A stretch of DNA of 64,000 nt, from positions 1 to 64,000 of the forward strand of contig JAJZYX010000001.1 in NCBI GenBank assembly GCA_021797855.1. Direction: 5' to 3'. This stretch comes from Thermoplasmata archaeon (GTDB lineage Archaea > Thermoplasmatota > Thermoplasmata > Thermoplasmatales > GCA-001856825). This document shows positions 42,904-52,024 of the stretch, in pieces (position 1 is the first letter of the stretch; the number at the start of each line of letters is the position of its first letter). The notes under the pieces are model-generated. The model worked only from the letters and a program-made list of their open reading frames with translations, was not told the origin of the DNA and did no database searches. The position numbers were made by a program, and so were the translations under genes.

Positions 42904-42980
42904 CAGTACTGCTTGATAAGGTAACAATTCCAGAGATAGTTATCTTCAGAAATAAAACAAGGATTAATAGAGGGTTGTGG

Positions 42981-44921
42981 ATGCTGAAGGCAATGAAGAA
43001 TGAAGAGGAATTCAAGAGAAGTCCGTACCTTGAGGAACACAACTCAGACCCGGTTAGATGGAACCTTTGGGGGGAAGAGGCATTCAGTCTCGCCAAAAGG
43101 GAAGATAAGCCACTTTTCATCACCATAGGCTATTCCACCTGTCACTGGTGCCACGTTATGCAAAGGGAGTCGTTCCAAGATGAGGAAATCTCAAAGATAT
43201 TGAACGAGGAATACGTGCCGGTTGTCGTTGACAGGGAAGAGAGACCCGACGTGGATTCATTCTATATGGGGGTGTCACAAATGATGAACGGGAGCGGAGG
43301 ATGGCCGCTAAATGTCATAGCGATGCCAGACGGACGGCCGTTCCAGGTCTTCACTTATTTGCCGGCAAGGGAGCCAGGAGGAAACGGGGGAATGGAGGGA
43401 ATCCTGAAGGCAATTTCAGAAATCTGGAAATCTGAAAGAGGTAGGATAATAGAGGCCGCAGACCAGATATCTTCTATAATCCTGAGCCCAGAGAAGGCTG
43501 TGGAAGGTGAAATAGGCCTGGATGAGGCCGTCCAAACACTCCAGAGCATCTACGACCGGAAGAACGGAGGGTTTGGAGACCAGCCTAAGTTTCCTAACTT
43601 CCCCTACATACTCTTCTTGATGAATTACATGCATGCAAAGAGGACGAGGAATATTTCCTATATCGTGGAGAAGACCCTAAGGAACATGAGAAATGGAGGC
43701 ATATTCGACCAGATAGGCTACGGGTTCCACAGGTACTCGACTGACGCGGAGTGGAAGGTACCGCATTTCGAGAAAATGCTCTACGACCAGGCGATGGCCA
43801 TTCAAACCTACACCCAGTACTACAGGTTGTCAGGAGATAGAGCTTTCCTTGAGATAGCCGGGGAAGTTGCGGATTTCGTTAAAAGGGAGATGAGAACTTC
43901 AGACGGACTCTACTTAAGCGGATTGGATGCCGACTTCAATGGAAGCGAAGGGGAATATTACACGTGGACTGACCAGCAGCTCTCAGAGAGTTTCGATGCT
44001 GAAGCGAGGAAAATGATAGAAGAGAGTTATTACCTTGACAGGGACCCGGAGAACAGGATTGTGCTCAGAAGGAGGGAGATTTTCAATGTTTCCCCTGAGA
44101 AGGTAAAGGTCTTGAGGGAGCTAAACAGAAAGATGCTGCAGGTGAGAGAGAAGCGTGGGTCGCCAAAACGCGACGATAAGGCAATACTTTGCTGGAACTC
44201 CATGCTCCTCTCTTCCCTCTTGTCCTACTCGGTCTCCAATCACAAGGAAGGATTCGATGAAATAATCGCCACTTCGGAGAAATTGATGAAGATGTTCTCA
44301 GGCGACGGGGTGATGTACAGGACGGTTAGAGATGGGATGCGAGGAGTGGAGGCTCTGCTGGAGGACTACGCATACTACTCTTCCCTCATGATAGACCTTT
44401 ATGAATTTACCGGCGAAAAGAGGTATCTCTCGGAGGCGATAGAGAAGACCAATACAATCAGAGAAAGATTCTTTGACGCAAACGGGGGAGGTTTCTTCAC
44501 AAGCAGCGAAGGGAAGTTCAGAGGGGTCTTCAAGAACAGGGACAGGCTGGACATCATCTACCCATCCGGAGAGTCTGTACTCTTCATGGTTCTTGAGAAA
44601 CTTTACCTTATAACAGGCGTTGAAGACTTCAGGGAATTGTCAAATTCCATTCTCCAGTCAAGGAGGAACGAAATTATAAGGAATCCTCTCTCCTCCGTGT
44701 TCATGCTGTCATCCGTTATGTTCAAGGGGAGGCTGAAGAAGATCGAGGTCCCTCCGGAGATGATGAAGGAGTTTCTTGATCGGGTTGGGATGAAGTTCTT
44801 TCCAAACGTCATTTCAGTACCGGGAGAAGGCAGGCTGCAGATTTGTGACGAAAAATCGTGCCAGTATAGCGGAAGCAGCTTGGACGATGCTATGGAATTC
44901 CTTTCCAGGAGGGAGAATTGA
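42981..44921 (+). CDS. YyaL/SPATA20-like thioredoxin-domain protein (DUF255)
   Basis: 646 residues from ATG 42981; ATG 42993 is an alternative. The N-terminal thioredoxin-like domain (about residues 1-160) has YLEEHNSDPVRWNLWGEEAF and ITIGYSTCHWCHVMQRESF with the CxxC-type CHWC; the rest is a helical (alpha/alpha)6 barrel with YDRKNGGFGDQPKFPN, IFDQIGYGFHRYSTDAEWKVPHFEKMLYDQA and DDKAILCWNSML. Conserved from bacteria to man; function unproven (a role with sugars or thiols is guessed). Confidence 0.92.
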   Translation: MLKAMKNEEEFKRSPYLEEHNSDPVRWNLWGEEAFSLAKREDKPLFITIGYSTCHWCHVMQRESFQDEEISKILNEEYVPVVVDREERPDVDSFYMGVSQMMNGSGGWPLNVIAMPDGRPFQVFTYLPAREPGGNGGMEGILKAISEIWKSERGRIIEAADQISSIILSPEKAVEGEIGLDEAVQTLQSIYDRKNGGFGDQPKFPNFPYILFLMNYMHAKRTRNISYIVEKTLRNMRNGGIFDQIGYGFHRYSTDAEWKVPHFEKMLYDQAMAIQTYTQYYRLSGDRAFLEIAGEVADFVKREMRTSDGLYLSGLDADFNGSEGEYYTWTDQQLSESFDAEARKMIEESYYLDRDPENRIVLRRREIFNVSPEKVKVLRELNRKMLQVREKRGSPKRDDKAILCWNSMLLSSLLSYSVSNHKEGFDEIIATSEKLMKMFSGDGVMYRTVRDGMRGVEALLEDYAYYSSLMIDLYEFTGEKRYLSEAIEKTNTIRERFFDANGGGFFTSSEGKFRGVFKNRDRLDIIYPSGESVLFMVLEKLYLITGVEDFRELSNSILQSRRNEIIRNPLSSVFMLSSVMFKGRLKKIEVPPEMMKEFLDRVGMKFFPNVISVPGEGRLQICDEKSCQYSGSSLDDAMEFLSRREN

Positions 44922-45131: not shown

Positions 45132-48100
45132 ATGGATGCAACGAGCAGAATTAAGACTCTAACGGATATCGCGAAGGACATGAGCGTAGAGTCGAAGACC
45201 GGTATTGCACTCACACTGGCCTTCTTCTTCTCCCTCTTCCTAAGTTTGTACTTCGTGATCGGACCCGCAGTGAAAGCGGATTTCGCCGTCTCAGGTGGAT
45301 CCGATGCGTATTACAATATGAGAATAGTCTCGTACATCCTTTCGACCCATCATCAGCTGCTCTTTGATCCGAGCCTGAACTACCCGATTGGTCTTGAGAA
45401 TCCAAGACCACCATTCTTCATGTGGTTCGCAGTGATGCTAGGCTACGCCTTCTCACCACTGCTTGGGGGAGTATACAACTCAACCATGACCATGTTCCTG
45501 GCATCAACCGCGATTGGGGGGGCGTTCATAGTATTCCCGACGTACTTCCTCGGGAAGGAGCTCTTCGACAGGAAGGTAGGGATAATAGCAGCAGTGCTCG
45601 TCGCAATGTCTCCTTTGACACTGATGAAGAGCATAGCGACAATAGGACTGTTCGATATATTCACAGCCCTTTTCGGTCTAATGTTCATCTACTTCTTCCT
45701 GAGGTCGGTAAATACCTTCAGATACGAAGACAACGGTAAGTCATTCGTTGGAAACATAGTTCCGTCAATGAAAGCTAATCCCATATCAGTTATTTACGGT
45801 CTTCTTGCCGGTGTTTCCCTCGCGGCATCAATGCTGACCTGGGTTGGTTCAATTGCGCTGATTCTCATACTCGTAGGATCTGCGGTAGTACAAACTGCAA
45901 TCTTTGCAATAAAGAGGAAAAGCGCATTATCCATACTTGTAGCAAATCTCCTCTTCGGTTCCGGTTTTCTCATATCTTTCCCGTGGTATTACGTGGCGGG
46001 CTTCATTCCGGTAAGATTCGAATATCCTCTTATTCTGTGGGTTGCCCTTCTAGCGGTGACAGTATACTTCCTCATTCTCCAGAAGAGACCGTGGCTCCTC
46101 TCCCTTGGGCTGTTCATCCTTTTCGCCGTAGCAGGAGTCCTTCTCCTTTACAAGGTAGACAGACAGCTCATTTACTCCATCCTTTCCGGCCAGCACTACT
46201 TCATCAAGAACAAGATATACGATACCATAGCAGAAGCCCAGGCCCTTCCGCTTGGCGAAGACCTTCTGGAATTTGGCGCTTTCACGTTCTTCGCCTCATT
46301 CATCGGTCTGGCCTACATGGTCTATAAATGGGTCAAGACAGCGACCTTCAATATGACCATAGCGGTGCTTTACTTCGGAGGGATAATAATAATAAGTATG
46401 ATTGCCTCAAAATTCCTCTACTTTGGAGCAACAGCCGCATCGATCCTGACTGCATACATCATAGTCAGGGCCTTTGAGCTTCTGCAGTTCAGGGAGGCGA
46501 TAGAAAAGTCCAGGGGGAGATCAATAAAGACTGCTCTTAGGAGAGAGTTGAGGTTTGCCCACTATGCGACAATACTCATAGTAGTCTTCCTCCTAATCGT
46601 TCCAACCACGTTCTACGCAGTCGATTCGGCGATACCCTACAACAATAAGACAACTTACGACAGGCAGTTGTACAATGACACCCCCGCTTTCCTGAGGCCT
46701 GCCAATTACACCCCTCCTTACTACCTTGGAGCCTTCGGAGCAAGTCTTGCGACACCAAACCAGCCGCTGAACACTGCACTTTCGTGGTTTGCAAATCAGG
46801 ATGCTCAGCTTGCACCGTCGCAGCGTCCTGCGTTCATGTCATGGTGGGACTATGGGTTCCAGACCCTGGAGCAGGGCAACCATCCAGTAATGGCAGATAA
46901 CTTCCAGGACGGAATATATCCGGCTGCGCAACTCCTCCTGGCCCAGAACGAGAGTGAAATGATTGCAGTAATGATTACAAGGATGCTGGACAACTATTCC
47001 GTAAATGGCAACTTCAACTCATCAGCGGTAATACCCCTACTAGTCCAGTATCTTGGACAGAAGGGTGCAGATACCGTCATGAGCTACGAAACCAACTCGA
47101 AGAACTATATCTCCCTCATCTCGGAGAATCCAAGCTTCTTTGGCCCGACTCAGGACGTACAGGTAGGGGATGCAAAGTACATCCTGATAGAGCACTATAT
47201 CGCAAACCTATACCCTCTCAGCACTATAATAAACCTCTATTCTGCAATAGAGCATCAACTGAACAAGTACATGAGTTATATCTCCATAAATTCAGGCCTG
47301 TTCCCGTTCAACGGGACTAACACAGGCATATTCTACGCTCCTTCTTACCTTGGGGATTTCCCGTTCGTGAATGCATCCGGTGAGATCATCCCCACAGCCT
47401 TCTATACGATTAACGTTACCGACACCTCAGGAAATACGTACCCACTGCAGAACTTCCCGCCCGGAGACACGCCTGTGAGCTACAGCATACACTACACCCC
47501 TGCGTTCTACAACACCACGATATACAGGGGCTTCATAGGCTACCCCCCAAGCGTGGTGGGAGCTAGCAGCGGGATACCGGGGTTCTCCTCTAACCTTACC
47601 TCATATCCTGCAATGCAGGGATGGGGCATGCCAAACTTTGAGGTGGTATACAAGACCGTGCTCTGGAATCCCTATACCGACTATCAGAATCATACTACCG
47701 CTTGGAAGCCGGTCTCTCTTGAACAGGGATATTACTACCTCTCGAAGCACGACGGGACTGTTGACCTATTCCCGCCGTCGTCAGTTCTTGCCAATGACGT
47801 GATATTCCTGCAGTACTACCCAGGGGCAATTATAGAGGGGAAGGTCACGACTACCAGCGGTCAACCGGTGGAGGGTGTGAGGGTAACTCTCACGGACCAG
47901 TACGGAATCCCCCACCAGACCGTATTGACCAATGCTTCCGGGTACTACTCCCTTTATGCAGTAGCAGGAAACGATACAGTGACTTATTCTACCGGTTCAA
48001 TGAATCCTCTCTACATGCTTGGGAACAAGACCCTTGGGTATTACAACGTAACAATCTCGGAGGCCCAGGCAAACAGGGAGAGCTACAACAATTATGGAAT

Positions 48101-51100
48101 GCCCACGTGGAACATCACTCACAACCTAGTTCTTAATTCAACGCAGATCAACGGAATAATGTATCTTAACATTGCGAGGAGGCCGACGTTCTCTATCGCG
48201 GATCAGCCCATATCGGGAACAATCACCTACTACAATTCCACCTATAACATTTCATATATCACTCACACGCTGCAGAATGGAAGCTATCAACTTTCCAACG
48301 TCCTCCCCTACAGCTACGAGATATCTGCAAACGTTTACGGGCAGACATACAGAAACGTCACTTCCATCACAGTATCGTCCGGCTTTGTCTCAAAGGACGT
48401 GCCGCTCCAGTTCGGAATAATGAATGCTAGCCTAGCCAAAGGGAATCAGCTATCGCAAGGGGCAGGAATATCGTTCAGCAGGGGGAACTTCTCTATTTCG
48501 TATAACCTGACACAGCCGGACCAGACGTACTATTTGCCGACTGGCATCTACAATGTCAGCGCACATAGCGGAGGGAGATGGGACAACTTCACAGCTCAGC
48601 TGACTAATAACAGCACTGCGAATCTGAACCTCTCTTTCCAGAGGATGTTCACGGTCACATTTGTAACGCAGATCAACGGATTTCCAGTAAGCGCACTGGT
48701 CACGATAAATAACGGCACAAATTCAGCGGGTAGCACACAGACAATACAGACAGATTCCCGAGGGGTCGGTTATTTCAGTGCTCCGATATCAACAGATATC
48801 GTCTATACCGACGTCCTTTACAACGGAAGATATTATGCAGCCTCGGAGATCGTAAACATATCCAGTACCATGAGCGTACCCCTCAACCTAGAGCCCGCCT
48901 ACCTGGTCTCAGGTCAATATAAGGTCAATAACGTCGGACAGAACAATACAAAGATTGGAATAGTCGGAAATGGCACTTACGTGAAGCTGTTCGGAAACAA
49001 AACTGGTTACTTCTCAGTCTACCTCCCTGCCGGTGAATACAAAGTAGTGACATATTCGCACTTCAACTTCTCCCTTTACGTAGCAGCTATGCAGTTCACA
49101 GTGAACAATCATGACCTTTACCTCAATCTGAACGGGATTCCCGGTAGCCAGATAAATGGTACCGTTTCGTACAACAATTTACCCGTCACCGGGCTTGTTA
49201 CTTCCCAGATGAACGGCGCCCCATATTATGACACGTTCACAACAGGGAAAGGGGCGTACAGCATATTCGTTCAAAAGGGTCTATCTCCCGGGACCTTGAA
49301 TTTCGTATCCCCGGGTTACTCAATATCATCCTCAACTCCAACAAAGATAGAACTGAAAATCCTGCCAGTGACAGTTTCATTAGAAGCCAACTATTCAGGG
49401 AACGTACCAATCAGGCTCTACGTAAATGGCACTTATGACTATATAGTATCTGGCACGCACTTCTTCAATTTTTCTGCACTCCCCGGCAATTACACCCTTT
49501 CTTTCTCTCATCCTGGCACGGCAATTCAAAGTACTATGAACAGCATTGAAGTTATTCCGGCGGAGATGGGACAGTCCTTCACCGCCAATATGAGGGTAAT
49601 GGCCAAACTCACGGTGGAACCTGTCAAAAAGATATTCGTGTTCCACGACGGGAATCTGGTATCCACAGGCCTAAATTCCACCCTCCCTATAGGGAATTAC
49701 ACTATTTATGGATACAGTGGCAGCAGTGCCGCACTGGCAAAAGTGAATCTCACTGAAAACTCGGTCGTCGCCCTCAACCTGAGCGCCGCATACAACGTAA
49801 CCATATACACATCCCCCTCGGCGTCTGTGCTGATAGGGTCGCAGTACGGCAATATATCCTGGGAGAACTCCATCCTCCTGCCCCAGGGGCACTACACCTT
49901 CACTCTTCTGAAGAAAATCAATTCCACGTACGAGTATTATGCCTCTTCCACGTTGTACGTCTCATCCCCGCAGCAGTTAAGGCTAAACGGTCTTCCAACA
50001 GAGACAGTTGAGAATGTAAGGATAGCCTTCTATAGTGGAAATTCCCCGCTGTCATCCGGCACTTACTTCATTCAGGGAACAAAGAACTATACCGGAACAT
50101 TCAGCACAAACATCATACAGCTGCCGATAGGGAATTACTCGATATATGCTACATCAAGCAACCTCGCCTACCTGGGATCGTTCGAGGTCACTTCATCTGG
50201 AGCTGACCTCAATCTAACCCTCCAGAGAGCGTACCCTCTGAACTATGGTACCTACCTCAATAACACTTCCTACGCAGGAATGGTCGCCATCAAGGGTGCA
50301 GTGAAGTACTACCTACAGCCGTCGGGTGTGATCATGCTTCCCAATGGTACTTACACCTTTTCCGCATATACCAATTTCACATACTACGGCTACCTGGACA
50401 ATTACACCCTCAACCAGACGGTCAAGGTAAACGGAGTCAGCTCCGGCACGCTATTATTCAAGATAGTTCCCATAGAAGAGGCGACGTTCTATGCAGAAGC
50501 TGGCAGTCCAGTACTGGCGAACAACCAGTCCATCACATTCCCAATGCTGATAACCAGCAAATCCAACATACCTCTCAACTTCACCATAGGGAATTCATCA
50601 TCTTTTTACGTAAACGGTTCAAGTATACGCCTACTCCCATACTCATCAGGCGAAACCAACGTGACGATCAAGGTTCCTGCCCACCAGTCTGCAGGAAATA
50701 ACACGGTCTACGTCAGGGTCTACTACGGACAGACATACTATAACGTTGCGGTAAACGTGACGGTACCTTCTCGTGAGGACGTTACTGCAGTTGTGAAGAA
50801 TAACACTGGGAAGATAGTAGGGAACCTGCTGGAGATACCAATGACAATCTTCAACAGAGGGAATGTGAAGGGAAAAGTGAATGTCACAATAATGAACGCT
50901 GCGGAACTCAGCTCCAACGGCATAACAATCAAGTTCGGTAATGCCACCTATTATTCCACGAACATAGGATCGTTTTCAAACAACACAACTTACCTCACAG
51001 TGAATTCCAGTGGAATAGGGATGGTTGACGGAAGCATAGTATCGGTGCTCATAAGCTACGGGAACACGACGAAGATCGTCAGCTTTGCCCTTGAAACACC

Positions 51101-51254
51101 ACAGCTCTCGGTGAGCAAGGGTGAGGGTATCGGTCATGGAATCTCCATTTATTCGCCGCTTACGCAGGACTATTACATCTACGCATTCTCTTTCTTCATC
51201 GTGCTTGCGATGATTCTGGTGATGCTCATATTCAGAAGGAGGTTCAGGGCATGA
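45132..51254 (+). CDS. aglB: Giant oligosaccharyltransferase STT3/AglB with repeat-rich outer region
   Basis: 2040 residues from ATG 45132, five bases after GGTGG; GTG 45123 is an alternative. Residues about 20-490 hold roughly 13 membrane helices with the metal-site GGSDAYYNMR (D58) in the first outer loop; WWDYG at 571-575 is the catalytic motif that recognises the N-x-S/T sequon. Usual archaeal AglB is about 800-1000 residues; here the outer part continues from about 495 to 2010. It holds a carboxypeptidase-regulatory-like domain (about 900-950), then beta-sandwich repeats with LP-x-G-x-Y cores, and many N-x-S/T sequons. A C-terminal membrane helix (about 2012-2034) and basic RRRFRA close it. 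Confidence 0.92.
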   Translation: MDATSRIKTLTDIAKDMSVESKTGIALTLAFFFSLFLSLYFVIGPAVKADFAVSGGSDAYYNMRIVSYILSTHHQLLFDPSLNYPIGLENPRPPFFMWFAVMLGYAFSPLLGGVYNSTMTMFLASTAIGGAFIVFPTYFLGKELFDRKVGIIAAVLVAMSPLTLMKSIATIGLFDIFTALFGLMFIYFFLRSVNTFRYEDNGKSFVGNIVPSMKANPISVIYGLLAGVSLAASMLTWVGSIALILILVGSAVVQTAIFAIKRKSALSILVANLLFGSGFLISFPWYYVAGFIPVRFEYPLILWVALLAVTVYFLILQKRPWLLSLGLFILFAVAGVLLLYKVDRQLIYSILSGQHYFIKNKIYDTIAEAQALPLGEDLLEFGAFTFFASFIGLAYMVYKWVKTATFNMTIAVLYFGGIIIISMIASKFLYFGATAASILTAYIIVRAFELLQFREAIEKSRGRSIKTALRRELRFAHYATILIVVFLLIVPTTFYAVDSAIPYNNKTTYDRQLYNDTPAFLRPANYTPPYYLGAFGASLATPNQPLNTALSWFANQDAQLAPSQRPAFMSWWDYGFQTLEQGNHPVMADNFQDGIYPAAQLLLAQNESEMIAVMITRMLDNYSVNGNFNSSAVIPLLVQYLGQKGADTVMSYETNSKNYISLISENPSFFGPTQDVQVGDAKYILIEHYIANLYPLSTIINLYSAIEHQLNKYMSYISINSGLFPFNGTNTGIFYAPSYLGDFPFVNASGEIIPTAFYTINVTDTSGNTYPLQNFPPGDTPVSYSIHYTPAFYNTTIYRGFIGYPPSVVGASSGIPGFSSNLTSYPAMQGWGMPNFEVVYKTVLWNPYTDYQNHTTAWKPVSLEQGYYYLSKHDGTVDLFPPSSVLANDVIFLQYYPGAIIEGKVTTTSGQPVEGVRVTLTDQYGIPHQTVLTNASGYYSLYAVAGNDTVTYSTGSMNPLYMLGNKTLGYYNVTISEAQANRESYNNYGMPTWNITHNLVLNSTQINGIMYLNIARRPTFSIADQPISGTITYYNSTYNISYITHTLQNGSYQLSNVLPYSYEISANVYGQTYRNVTSITVSSGFVSKDVPLQFGIMNASLAKGNQLSQGAGISFSRGNFSISYNLTQPDQTYYLPTGIYNVSAHSGGRWDNFTAQLTNNSTANLNLSFQRMFTVTFVTQINGFPVSALVTINNGTNSAGSTQTIQTDSRGVGYFSAPISTDIVYTDVLYNGRYYAASEIVNISSTMSVPLNLEPAYLVSGQYKVNNVGQNNTKIGIVGNGTYVKLFGNKTGYFSVYLPAGEYKVVTYSHFNFSLYVAAMQFTVNNHDLYLNLNGIPGSQINGTVSYNNLPVTGLVTSQMNGAPYYDTFTTGKGAYSIFVQKGLSPGTLNFVSPGYSISSSTPTKIELKILPVTVSLEANYSGNVPIRLYVNGTYDYIVSGTHFFNFSALPGNYTLSFSHPGTAIQSTMNSIEVIPAEMGQSFTANMRVMAKLTVEPVKKIFVFHDGNLVSTGLNSTLPIGNYTIYGYSGSSAALAKVNLTENSVVALNLSAAYNVTIYTSPSASVLIGSQYGNISWENSILLPQGHYTFTLLKKINSTYEYYASSTLYVSSPQQLRLNGLPTETVENVRIAFYSGNSPLSSGTYFIQGTKNYTGTFSTNIIQLPIGNYSIYATSSNLAYLGSFEVTSSGADLNLTLQRAYPLNYGTYLNNTSYAGMVAIKGAVKYYLQPSGVIMLPNGTYTFSAYTNFTYYGYLDNYTLNQTVKVNGVSSGTLLFKIVPIEEATFYAEAGSPVLANNQSITFPMLITSKSNIPLNFTIGNSSSFYVNGSSIRLLPYSSGETNVTIKVPAHQSAGNNTVYVRVYYGQTYYNVAVNVTVPSREDVTAVVKNNTGKIVGNLLEIPMTIFNRGNVKGKVNVTIMNAAELSSNGITIKFGNATYYSTNIGSFSNNTTYLTVNSSGIGMVDGSIVSVLISYGNTTKIVSFALETPQLSVSKGEGIGHGISIYSPLTQDYYIYAFSFFIVLAMILVMLIFRRRFRA
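48531..50362 (+). repeat. Degenerate beta-sandwich repeats in the AglB outer region
   Basis: At least seven copies of a core LP-x-G-x-Y followed by hydrophobic residues: YLPTGIYNVS, YLPAGEYKVV, ALPGNYTLSF (short form), TLPIGNYTIY, LLPQGHYTFT, QLPIGNYSIY and MLPNGTYTFS, at about 48531, 49023, 49477, 49681, 49868, 50118 and 50334. The last five are spaced about 200 bases apart, so units are roughly 65-80 residues. They resemble PEGA or carboxypeptidase-regulatory-like folds; DNA copies are diverged. Confidence 0.7.
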
Positions 51255-52024
51255 GAGAGAGGGCAATATACGCTTCTATAGCCATCGTGCTGACCGCCAT
51301 CTTCGTCCTGGGCTCAATGGCAGGGGCAGACGGGAGCAGCACCTCCTACGGCCCGGTCAGCGTCACAGGTCCATCTGCCGTGGCCATTAACTCCACATTC
51401 AACTACACGGTAAATGTACAGCAGATCTTTTCGAACTACTCGGTTGTGATGATCCTGTCAGGGTACAACCTCACAGGCGCTTCCCCAGTTTCCCCGGTTT
51501 ACAAAACAGGGGAGCAGTCCGGCTCCAACACTTTCTCCCTCAGGGCACCGAGCGTTGCAACTACCCTCTTCATATTATTCCAGGTCATAGGGAATATGAC
51601 GAACCATGCAAAGTACTATTACAACCTCACGGCAAAGGTACTGGTCAAGCAGTTCACGATCCTCAAGGCGACTATTAAGAATCCGACCGAATTTTCCATA
51701 AGCGCTATTAATGTCACTTTCAAGGTGAATGGGAAATACGCTGGAAGCGAGCTCGTAAACCTGTCCAAGAATTCGACGAAGAATCTCACGTACAAATGGG
51801 TCTCCGGACAGCTTCCTGCAGGTGTGTATACGGTTTCCATATATGTCAACAGCAGCGTTGTGAAGCTCGAGGGAGGCAACTCTTACACCTTCCAGATCCA
51901 GTCCGGGAACCCGTACGTCATTTACATCTACATTGGCATCCTTGCATTCTTCACGATAATTGTCGTAGTGCTTTTCATAGCTAGCTACTATGCCAGAAAG
52001 AGGAGACCAAAGTGGAAGAAGTGA
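51251..52024 (+). CDS. Secreted, membrane-anchored beta-domain protein linked to AglB
   Basis: 257 residues. N-terminal signal peptide (MRERAIYASIAIVLTAIFVL, cleavage near GADG), an outer region with two beta-sandwich-like parts (CARDB-like TILKATIKNPTEFSISAINVTFKVNG), numerous N-x-S/T sequons, and a C-terminal membrane helix followed by basic RKRRPKWKK. ATGA overlap with aglB implies coupled translation. It may be a non-catalytic partner of the giant AglB or an S-layer-linked protein; function not known. Confidence 0.8.
   Translation: MRERAIYASIAIVLTAIFVLGSMAGADGSSTSYGPVSVTGPSAVAINSTFNYTVNVQQIFSNYSVVMILSGYNLTGASPVSPVYKTGEQSGSNTFSLRAPSVATTLFILFQVIGNMTNHAKYYYNLTAKVLVKQFTILKATIKNPTEFSISAINVTFKVNGKYAGSELVNLSKNSTKNLTYKWVSGQLPAGVYTVSIYVNSSVVKLEGGNSYTFQIQSGNPYVIYIYIGILAFFTIIVVVLFIASYYARKRRPKWKK

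Follow-up and report, generated by a model that had tools for sequence, protein, structure and literature searches.

Outside the eukaryotes and the Asgard/TACK archaea, oligosaccharyltransferases (OSTs) are described as single-subunit enzymes (PMC8342417; PMC11417166), and the characterized AglBs, for example those of Archaeoglobus, are 591-868 residues long (PMC3703281). OST accessory subunits have been reported in eukaryotes, in Asgard archaea and partly in TACK archaea (PMC11417166, PMC10307638); an earlier search for them in prokaryotes turned up nothing convincing (PMC4973528). In papers on the Thermoplasmata AglB is noted as present and nothing more (PMC5155288, PMC3750248), and a literature search, thin in subscription journals, returned no description of the giant form, its partner or the version without catalytic motifs presented here. 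The window analyzed is a stretch of 64,000 nucleotides from a Thermoplasmata archaeon (assembly GCA_021797855.1, contig JAJZYX010000001.1, positions 1 to 64,000) and contains a stop-free open reading frame for an AglB of 2040 residues, directly followed by the gene for a small membrane-anchored protein, termed the partner. There is about an even chance that AglB, with its anchored extracellular scaffold, and the partner constitute a two-component membrane oligosaccharyltransferase at the exit of the secretion pathway.

The window protein and Archaeoglobus AglB-L (868 amino acids; PDB codes 3waj and 5gmy) share the GT-C membrane core, Asp-58, the TIXE motif and the WWDYG motif. By sequence the core matches the solved Archaeoglobus AglB (E 1e-12) and scores 45.8 bits with PF02516, the STT3 membrane domain (cut-off 24.5 bits, E 8e-12), and TIGR04154 aligns to residues 25-614 with an E value of 2e-56, which lies below that model's stricter curated subfamily cut-off. 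Asp-58, the TIAE sequence at 365-368 (in external loop 5, a form of the archaeal TIXE motif described in PMC8342417) and WWDYG at 571-575 are near-invariant across 53 sequences of the class. The presence of the GT-C membrane domain and the three catalytic motifs assigns the protein, on sequence grounds, to AglB/STT3. A preliminary description of this DNA had reported a normal core with Asp-58 and WWDYG 571-575; both are found as it described them, and TIAE is there as well. Because TIGR04154 (831 positions) stops at residue 614 with ~250 positions left, residues 615-880 probably correspond to the IS/P1 units. The window protein differs from AglB-L in being more than twice as long, in having 11 transthyretin-like and two immunoglobulin (Ig)-like domains, a C-terminal membrane anchor and a partner gene, and in the loss of the catalytic motifs in one Thermoplasmata family, termed f10. 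A sequencing artefact or a fusion of neighboring genes is ruled out, as the same unbroken length recurs in dozens of genomes.

AglB is present in 58 of 61 relatives with a near-equal length wherever the contig is complete, and the three relatives lacking it are incomplete assemblies (83-89% complete). Of 151 genomes of the class, 119 contain the STT3 family, mostly as one gene with an open frame of ~1830-2440 residues (median 2113 over 101 non-redundant loci). Carriers include Thermoplasma, Cuniculiplasma, Aciduliprofundum/DHVE2, the Methanomassiliicoccales and the acid-mine plasmas. Among named species I-plasma comes closest, with 72% identity, and metagenome-assembled genomes reach 77%. The giant AglB is thus the standard single oligosaccharyltransferase of the class Thermoplasmata, in lineages with or without an S-layer, and its class-wide occurrence rules out an oddity of one genome. 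The preliminary description held that known AglBs are usually about half this size; in this class the giant length is the norm. It had also named relatives of the same length with a known role as a case against its reading; the equal length is class-wide, and a known role did not come with it. In other classes of the phylum AglB has either 1170-1430 residues and no C-terminal anchor or 2300-3300 residues and an anchor. Some of these other-class AglBs, f39 and f42 among them, reach ~3100-3300 residues, larger still than the window protein, and have a C-terminal anchor and no adjacent partner. In E-plasma, in a good assembly, an apparent frameshift, either an error or a real split, divides AglB inside the extension, with the partner placed after the second half.

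The part of the protein beyond an ordinary AglB amounts to ~1160 residues, extending from ~880 to ~2010 together with the C-terminal helix. An AlphaFold2 model of residues 872-2040, built from a 53-sequence alignment, has a mean pLDDT (the local confidence score) of 84 and predicts a chain of 11 transthyretin-like domains (T1 to T11) followed by two Ig-like domains (Ig1 and Ig2) and a membrane helix, with domain boundaries placed by hand from DSSP. The chain of beta domains in the preliminary description therefore stands, and its estimate of ~1000 extra residues was too low. That description's second membrane anchor is confirmed by hydropathy as a single hydrophobic helix at ~2012-2036 after the membrane core, and the anchor is present in every class member inspected. 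The Pfam family PF13620 (CarboxypepD_reg) matches the window protein once and relatives in as many as seven stretches. The first Ig-like domain superposes on a bacterial sialidase Ig-like domain with Z 11.8 and a root mean square deviation of 2.2 over 96 residues (27% identity). A structure search with the whole extension gave long superpositions at huge root mean square deviations and domain-level matches, and OST subunits, TRAP and NOMO are not among the matches listed. Separate homologous surface proteins were rejected as a source of the extension, since three complete genomes of the same order contain no other match; elsewhere only short generic transthyretin-like/CARDB matches occur.

With the N-terminal core and the C-terminal helix each embedded in the membrane, the extension would form an anchored arch over the enzyme and not a free stalk. 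This topology bears on the proposal of the preliminary description that the extension tethers or bridges the enzyme to the S-layer or glycocalyx. A large extracellular chain of beta domains would suit such a role, and S-layers are present in Picrophilus and the acid mine drainage plasmas (cryo-electron microscopy; PMC3750248). However, both ends of the chain are membrane-anchored, the domain number is near-fixed over very different envelopes, and the length is equal in methanogens and in lineages lacking an S-layer (Cuniculiplasma is reported as S-layer-deficient; PMC5155288), so that the bridge is quite unlikely.

Conservation is unevenly distributed along the arch. T1 has a mean identity of 45% across the class compared with 41% for the catalytic core, with Gly-903, Asp-922, Gly-937 and Gly-946 found in 53 of 53 sequences and the IPH motif at 926-928 near-invariant. 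T2-T11 and Ig1-2 have mean identities of 22-23% with few gaps, and distances between extensions track those between cores (r 0.82-0.91), from which it follows that core and extension have been inherited together, the latter at a near-fixed length. The tight conservation of T1 beside the core would fit an extension that stabilizes the catalytic domain against acid and heat, a role suggested for the peripheral IS/P1/P2 units of hyperthermophile AglBs (PMC3703281). This explanation is nevertheless unlikely for the extension as a whole, which also occurs in members that are not thermoacidophiles and is kept in f10 without the catalytic motifs; it could still apply to T1 alone.

The partner gene, which the preliminary description had not noticed, overlaps the end of AglB by 4 bp (ATGA, at the AglB stop codon) and encodes a protein with a signal peptide, two beta-sandwich domains, a single transmembrane helix and a basic cytosolic tail. 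It lies directly 3' of AglB in essentially all of the 101 unique loci of the class that have 1 kb or more of downstream sequence: a start codon was found in 97, three have the partner without a start codon in the search range, and in one it stands behind the frameshifted E-plasma AglB. The 4-bp overlap occurs in at most 77 of the 97, an upper estimate because start-codon choice favored this overlap where several were possible; adjacency is unaffected. Genome coordinates place the partner 4.2-7.0 kb downstream of the STT3 match, and on its strand, in 81 of 84 genomes; in the other three the two are on different contigs. At loci with both flanks the partner is present in 59 of 59 and the best other neighbor tested in 16 of 59. 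The partner profile is found in nearly every class genome, and another lineage of the phylum (f33) also has the partner beside AglB. Partner tails average 5.9 Lys/Arg and 0.09 Asp/Glu in the last 12 residues, and the DNA pattern for the terminal PKWKK-stop was found in 32 of 61 genomes of the order, just once in each and invariably closing the partner gene, which is strikingly strict for so short a motif.

The ectodomain of the partner is poorly conserved, with 17-27% identity across the class. In a Pfam scan the second beta-sandwich domain is CARDB-like in 18 of 19 members, and the fold matches are ordinary Ig-type domains (protein 4.2, transglutaminases, pilus chaperones, arrestins and CARDB), on which no claim of a chaperone function is based. 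An origin by duplication of the C-terminal Ig domains of the extension was rejected, as hhalign aligns only 49 columns with generic Ig similarity. The low ectodomain conservation would be compatible with a surface protein that is merely co-transcribed and unrelated to AglB function. Such a coincidental arrangement is improbable given that the two genes are linked in essentially all intact loci of the class, where all other neighbors tested are shuffled, and given the 4-bp overlap, the unique tail motif, and the persistence of the linkage after catalysis is lost.

This last situation is found in family f10, probably the Methanomethylophilaceae. The giant open frame and the partner are present, and WWDYG is replaced by WIDYS, WFGYS, WYGYS and similar sequences; TIAE is gone, Asp-58 is mostly replaced, and the IPH motif of T1 has disappeared together with WWDYG. 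The frame is uninterrupted and the extension retained, with one AglB-derived open frame per genome. In 21 f10 loci full-length giant frames with lost motifs have kept the partner, and one further locus, L215, has the normal motif. Of 17 whole f10 genomes, 95-99% complete, 16 contain no DNA pattern for WWDYG, and the sole exception (G143) has a normal AglB. A search of the f10 genomes with the window core found no second STT3 gene save three marginal matches with E values above 0.01. The ratio of sequons (N-x-S/T) to reversed motifs in the last 1050 residues is 280:235 for the 21 sequences without L215, compared with ~2:1 in the order. Taken at the level of these sequences, f10 is read as having lost N-glycosylation and retained the scaffold and partner, and it provides the strongest hint of a separate function for extension and partner. 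Alternatively, the f10 AglB may be active with a rewired active site.

The preliminary description had also noted many N-x-S/T sites, and their number is indeed beyond chance: AglB contains 73 sequons, 59 of them in the extension, compared with 22.5 ± 4.1 in shuffled sequence and 26 reversed motifs. Within the genus 40-50 of the 59 are kept, as opposed to 9-11 of the 26 reversed motifs, and sequon asparagines are retained more often than other asparagines; the extension sequons are for this reason probably used. Such enrichment and retention would be expected of a self-glycosylated surface coat, which the preliminary description had considered for a wall-less acidophile. Across the class, however, sequons per extension range from 9 to 80 with 9-20 in many members, only four extension columns are a sequon in half or more of the class (Asn-947 in 46 of 53), and the extension spans methanogens and S-layer lineages. 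A coat would also need abundance, and the extension is part of a membrane enzyme encoded once per genome. A coat is accordingly scarcely probable, and dense glycosylation is a trait of some lineages and not the reason for the extension.

If the extension were cleaved off and worked as a separate secreted protein, it might be met in the medium, and LC-MS of the culture secretome of Picrophilus torridus did detect PTO0786, annotated "Oligosaccharyl transferase STT3 subunit" (PMC8345856). The same secretome includes EF-1alpha, the thermosome and the proteasome, so lysis or vesicles account for its presence. The C-terminal membrane helix is conserved and no gene encodes the extension alone; the single split case, that of E-plasma, is a frameshift whose second half has no signal peptide. 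Release is on this evidence very unlikely.

Among multisubunit systems, the OST of eukaryotes and Asgard/TACK archaea (Ost1, Ost3/6, Ost48 and Swp1) resembles the arrangement proposed for the Thermoplasmata in combining STT3 with membrane-anchored partners; the Ost1, Ost3/6, Ost48 and Swp1 families give no Pfam match to the partner or the extension at E 0.01. Two translocon components offer parallels in architecture. NOMO, a BOS subunit of the multipass translocon, has 12 Ig/prealbumin-like domains and a C-terminal helix, and TRAP alpha combines an Ig-like ectodomain with a C-tail that binds the ribosome (PMC11186639, PMC11169918). A profile of the extension searched against the PDB has the endoplasmic reticulum translocon subunit NOMO2 as its best match, far ahead of the next (E 8e-24), a resemblance of plan and domain type that does not imply common descent. 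Both are long prealbumin/transthyretin-like chains ending in a membrane helix, as predicted by AlphaFold2 for the extension; NOMO is a separate protein in eukaryotes, where it binds nicalin/TMEM147 and the Sec61 translocon, whereas the Thermoplasmata chain is fused to STT3. The partner shares with TRAP alpha/beta the signal peptide, Ig-like ectodomain, one transmembrane helix and basic cytosolic tail, and differs in having two beta domains with CARDB similarity. TRAP has been reported only in Asgards and eukaryotes (PMC11417166). The TRAP families have no Pfam match in 19 partner members at E 0.01, and the PDB profile search with the partner gave CARDB domains and antibodies.

It is this comparison with the eukaryotic translocon that suggests a placement at the secretion exit. 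The observed anatomy, conservation across the class, operon linkage and retention of arch and partner after motif loss in f10 are the basis of the proposed mechanism. In it the STT3 core would transfer glycan to surface proteins, and T1, whose motif is lost along with the catalytic motifs, would belong to the catalytic machinery and feed sequons to the active site. The arch of T2-T11 and Ig1-2 and the partner ectodomain would hold or steer surface proteins as they leave the secretion channel, with AglB and partner in physical complex and docked there; that the extension might hold substrates had also been considered in the preliminary description. The short tail of the partner may have a binding target in the cytosol, the ribosome or SecY being the most plausible candidates. 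Scaffold and partner could in this way outlive catalysis. A more explicit version is tentative and clearly less probable than the two-component enzyme itself: a NOMO-like arch fused to STT3 and a TRAP-like partner would be docked at the ribosome-SecY exit, and in the methanogen family the complex would have become a pure secretion scaffold, a pseudo-oligosaccharyltransferase with no detectable active STT3 elsewhere.

Several observations weigh against the two-component enzyme. Contact between AglB and partner and a location at the translocon are inferred, and the pTM score (the global confidence score) of 0.44 for the extension model means that single domains are reliable and their mutual arrangement is not. 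The NOMO match may mirror domain type only, because transthyretin-like repeats are widespread; pilus adhesins, alpha-2-macroglobulins and others also match the extension, and the Pfam models specific to NOMO score much lower than the general model, CarboxypepD_reg. Outside the class there are short anchorless AglBs or giant anchored AglBs with no adjoining partner, so the two parts are not always linked. Within it, the three Acidiplasma-type AglBs have 1425-1442 residues, ~600 having been lost from the middle of the extension, and keep T1, the C-terminal region, the anchor and the partner. Forced-length mafft placements of the Acidiplasma and other-class extensions were set aside, as hidden Markov model matches contradict them. 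In f10, T2-T11 retain 0.53 of their class-conserved columns, as against 0.49 for the core and 0.27 for T1; this counts in favor of a retained scaffold, but the drop is broad and makes selection on the scaffold only relatively stronger.

If the two-component enzyme is real, it would be a two-subunit oligosaccharyltransferase outside the Asgard/TACK lineage, and a class-wide, translationally coupled partner with a fixed extracellular scaffold would represent a second solution to the coupling of glycosylation with secretion. Family f10 would then be a natural separation-of-function case in which the scaffold role is separable from glycan transfer. Archaeal N-glycosylation has been called seemingly universal (PMC8674786), and f10 would place this near-universality in question.

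The features of the locus are collected in Table 1.

Table 1. Positions in the window of AglB, its motifs and predicted domains, and the partner gene
Feature	Position	Strand	Basis
Giant AglB/STT3 oligosaccharyltransferase, 2040 amino acids	45132..51254	+	translation; PF02516, TIGR04154 and PDB AglB matches; relatives
Asp-58, first external-loop acidic residue of the STT3 active site	45303..45305	+	Asp in 52/53 class sequences
TIAE 365-368, archaeal TIXE motif of external loop 5	46224..46235	+	Glu-368 in 53/53
WWDYG catalytic motif, residues 571-575	46842..46856	+	translation; class conservation
Remaining ordinary AglB globular region, residues 615-880, probable position of IS/P1 units	46974..47771	+	
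T1, first transthyretin-like (CarboxypepD_reg) domain, ~895-985; Asp-922, IPH 926-928, sequon Asn-947	47814..48086	+	PF13620, E 6e-10
T2-T11, ten more transthyretin-like beta domains, ~1004-1780	48141..50471	+	AlphaFold2
Two Ig-like (NEW3/CARDB-type) domains, ~1783-1990	50478..51101	+	VIA-align structure match
C-terminal transmembrane anchor, ~2012-2036, then basic end	51165..51239	+	hydropathy; helix in AlphaFold2 model
Partner, 257 amino acids: signal peptide, two beta-sandwich domains, single transmembrane helix, basic cytosolic tail	51251..52024	+	AlphaFold2, pLDDT 86.9
Conserved C-terminal PKWKK-stop of the partner	52007..52024	+	

A sigma-70 promoter scan, which is not designed for archaea, found nothing. 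Just upstream of AglB on the same strand is a gene for a DUF255/DsbH-like thioredoxin-domain protein (42975-44921), which is near AglB in only 4 of 59 loci and is therefore probably unrelated.

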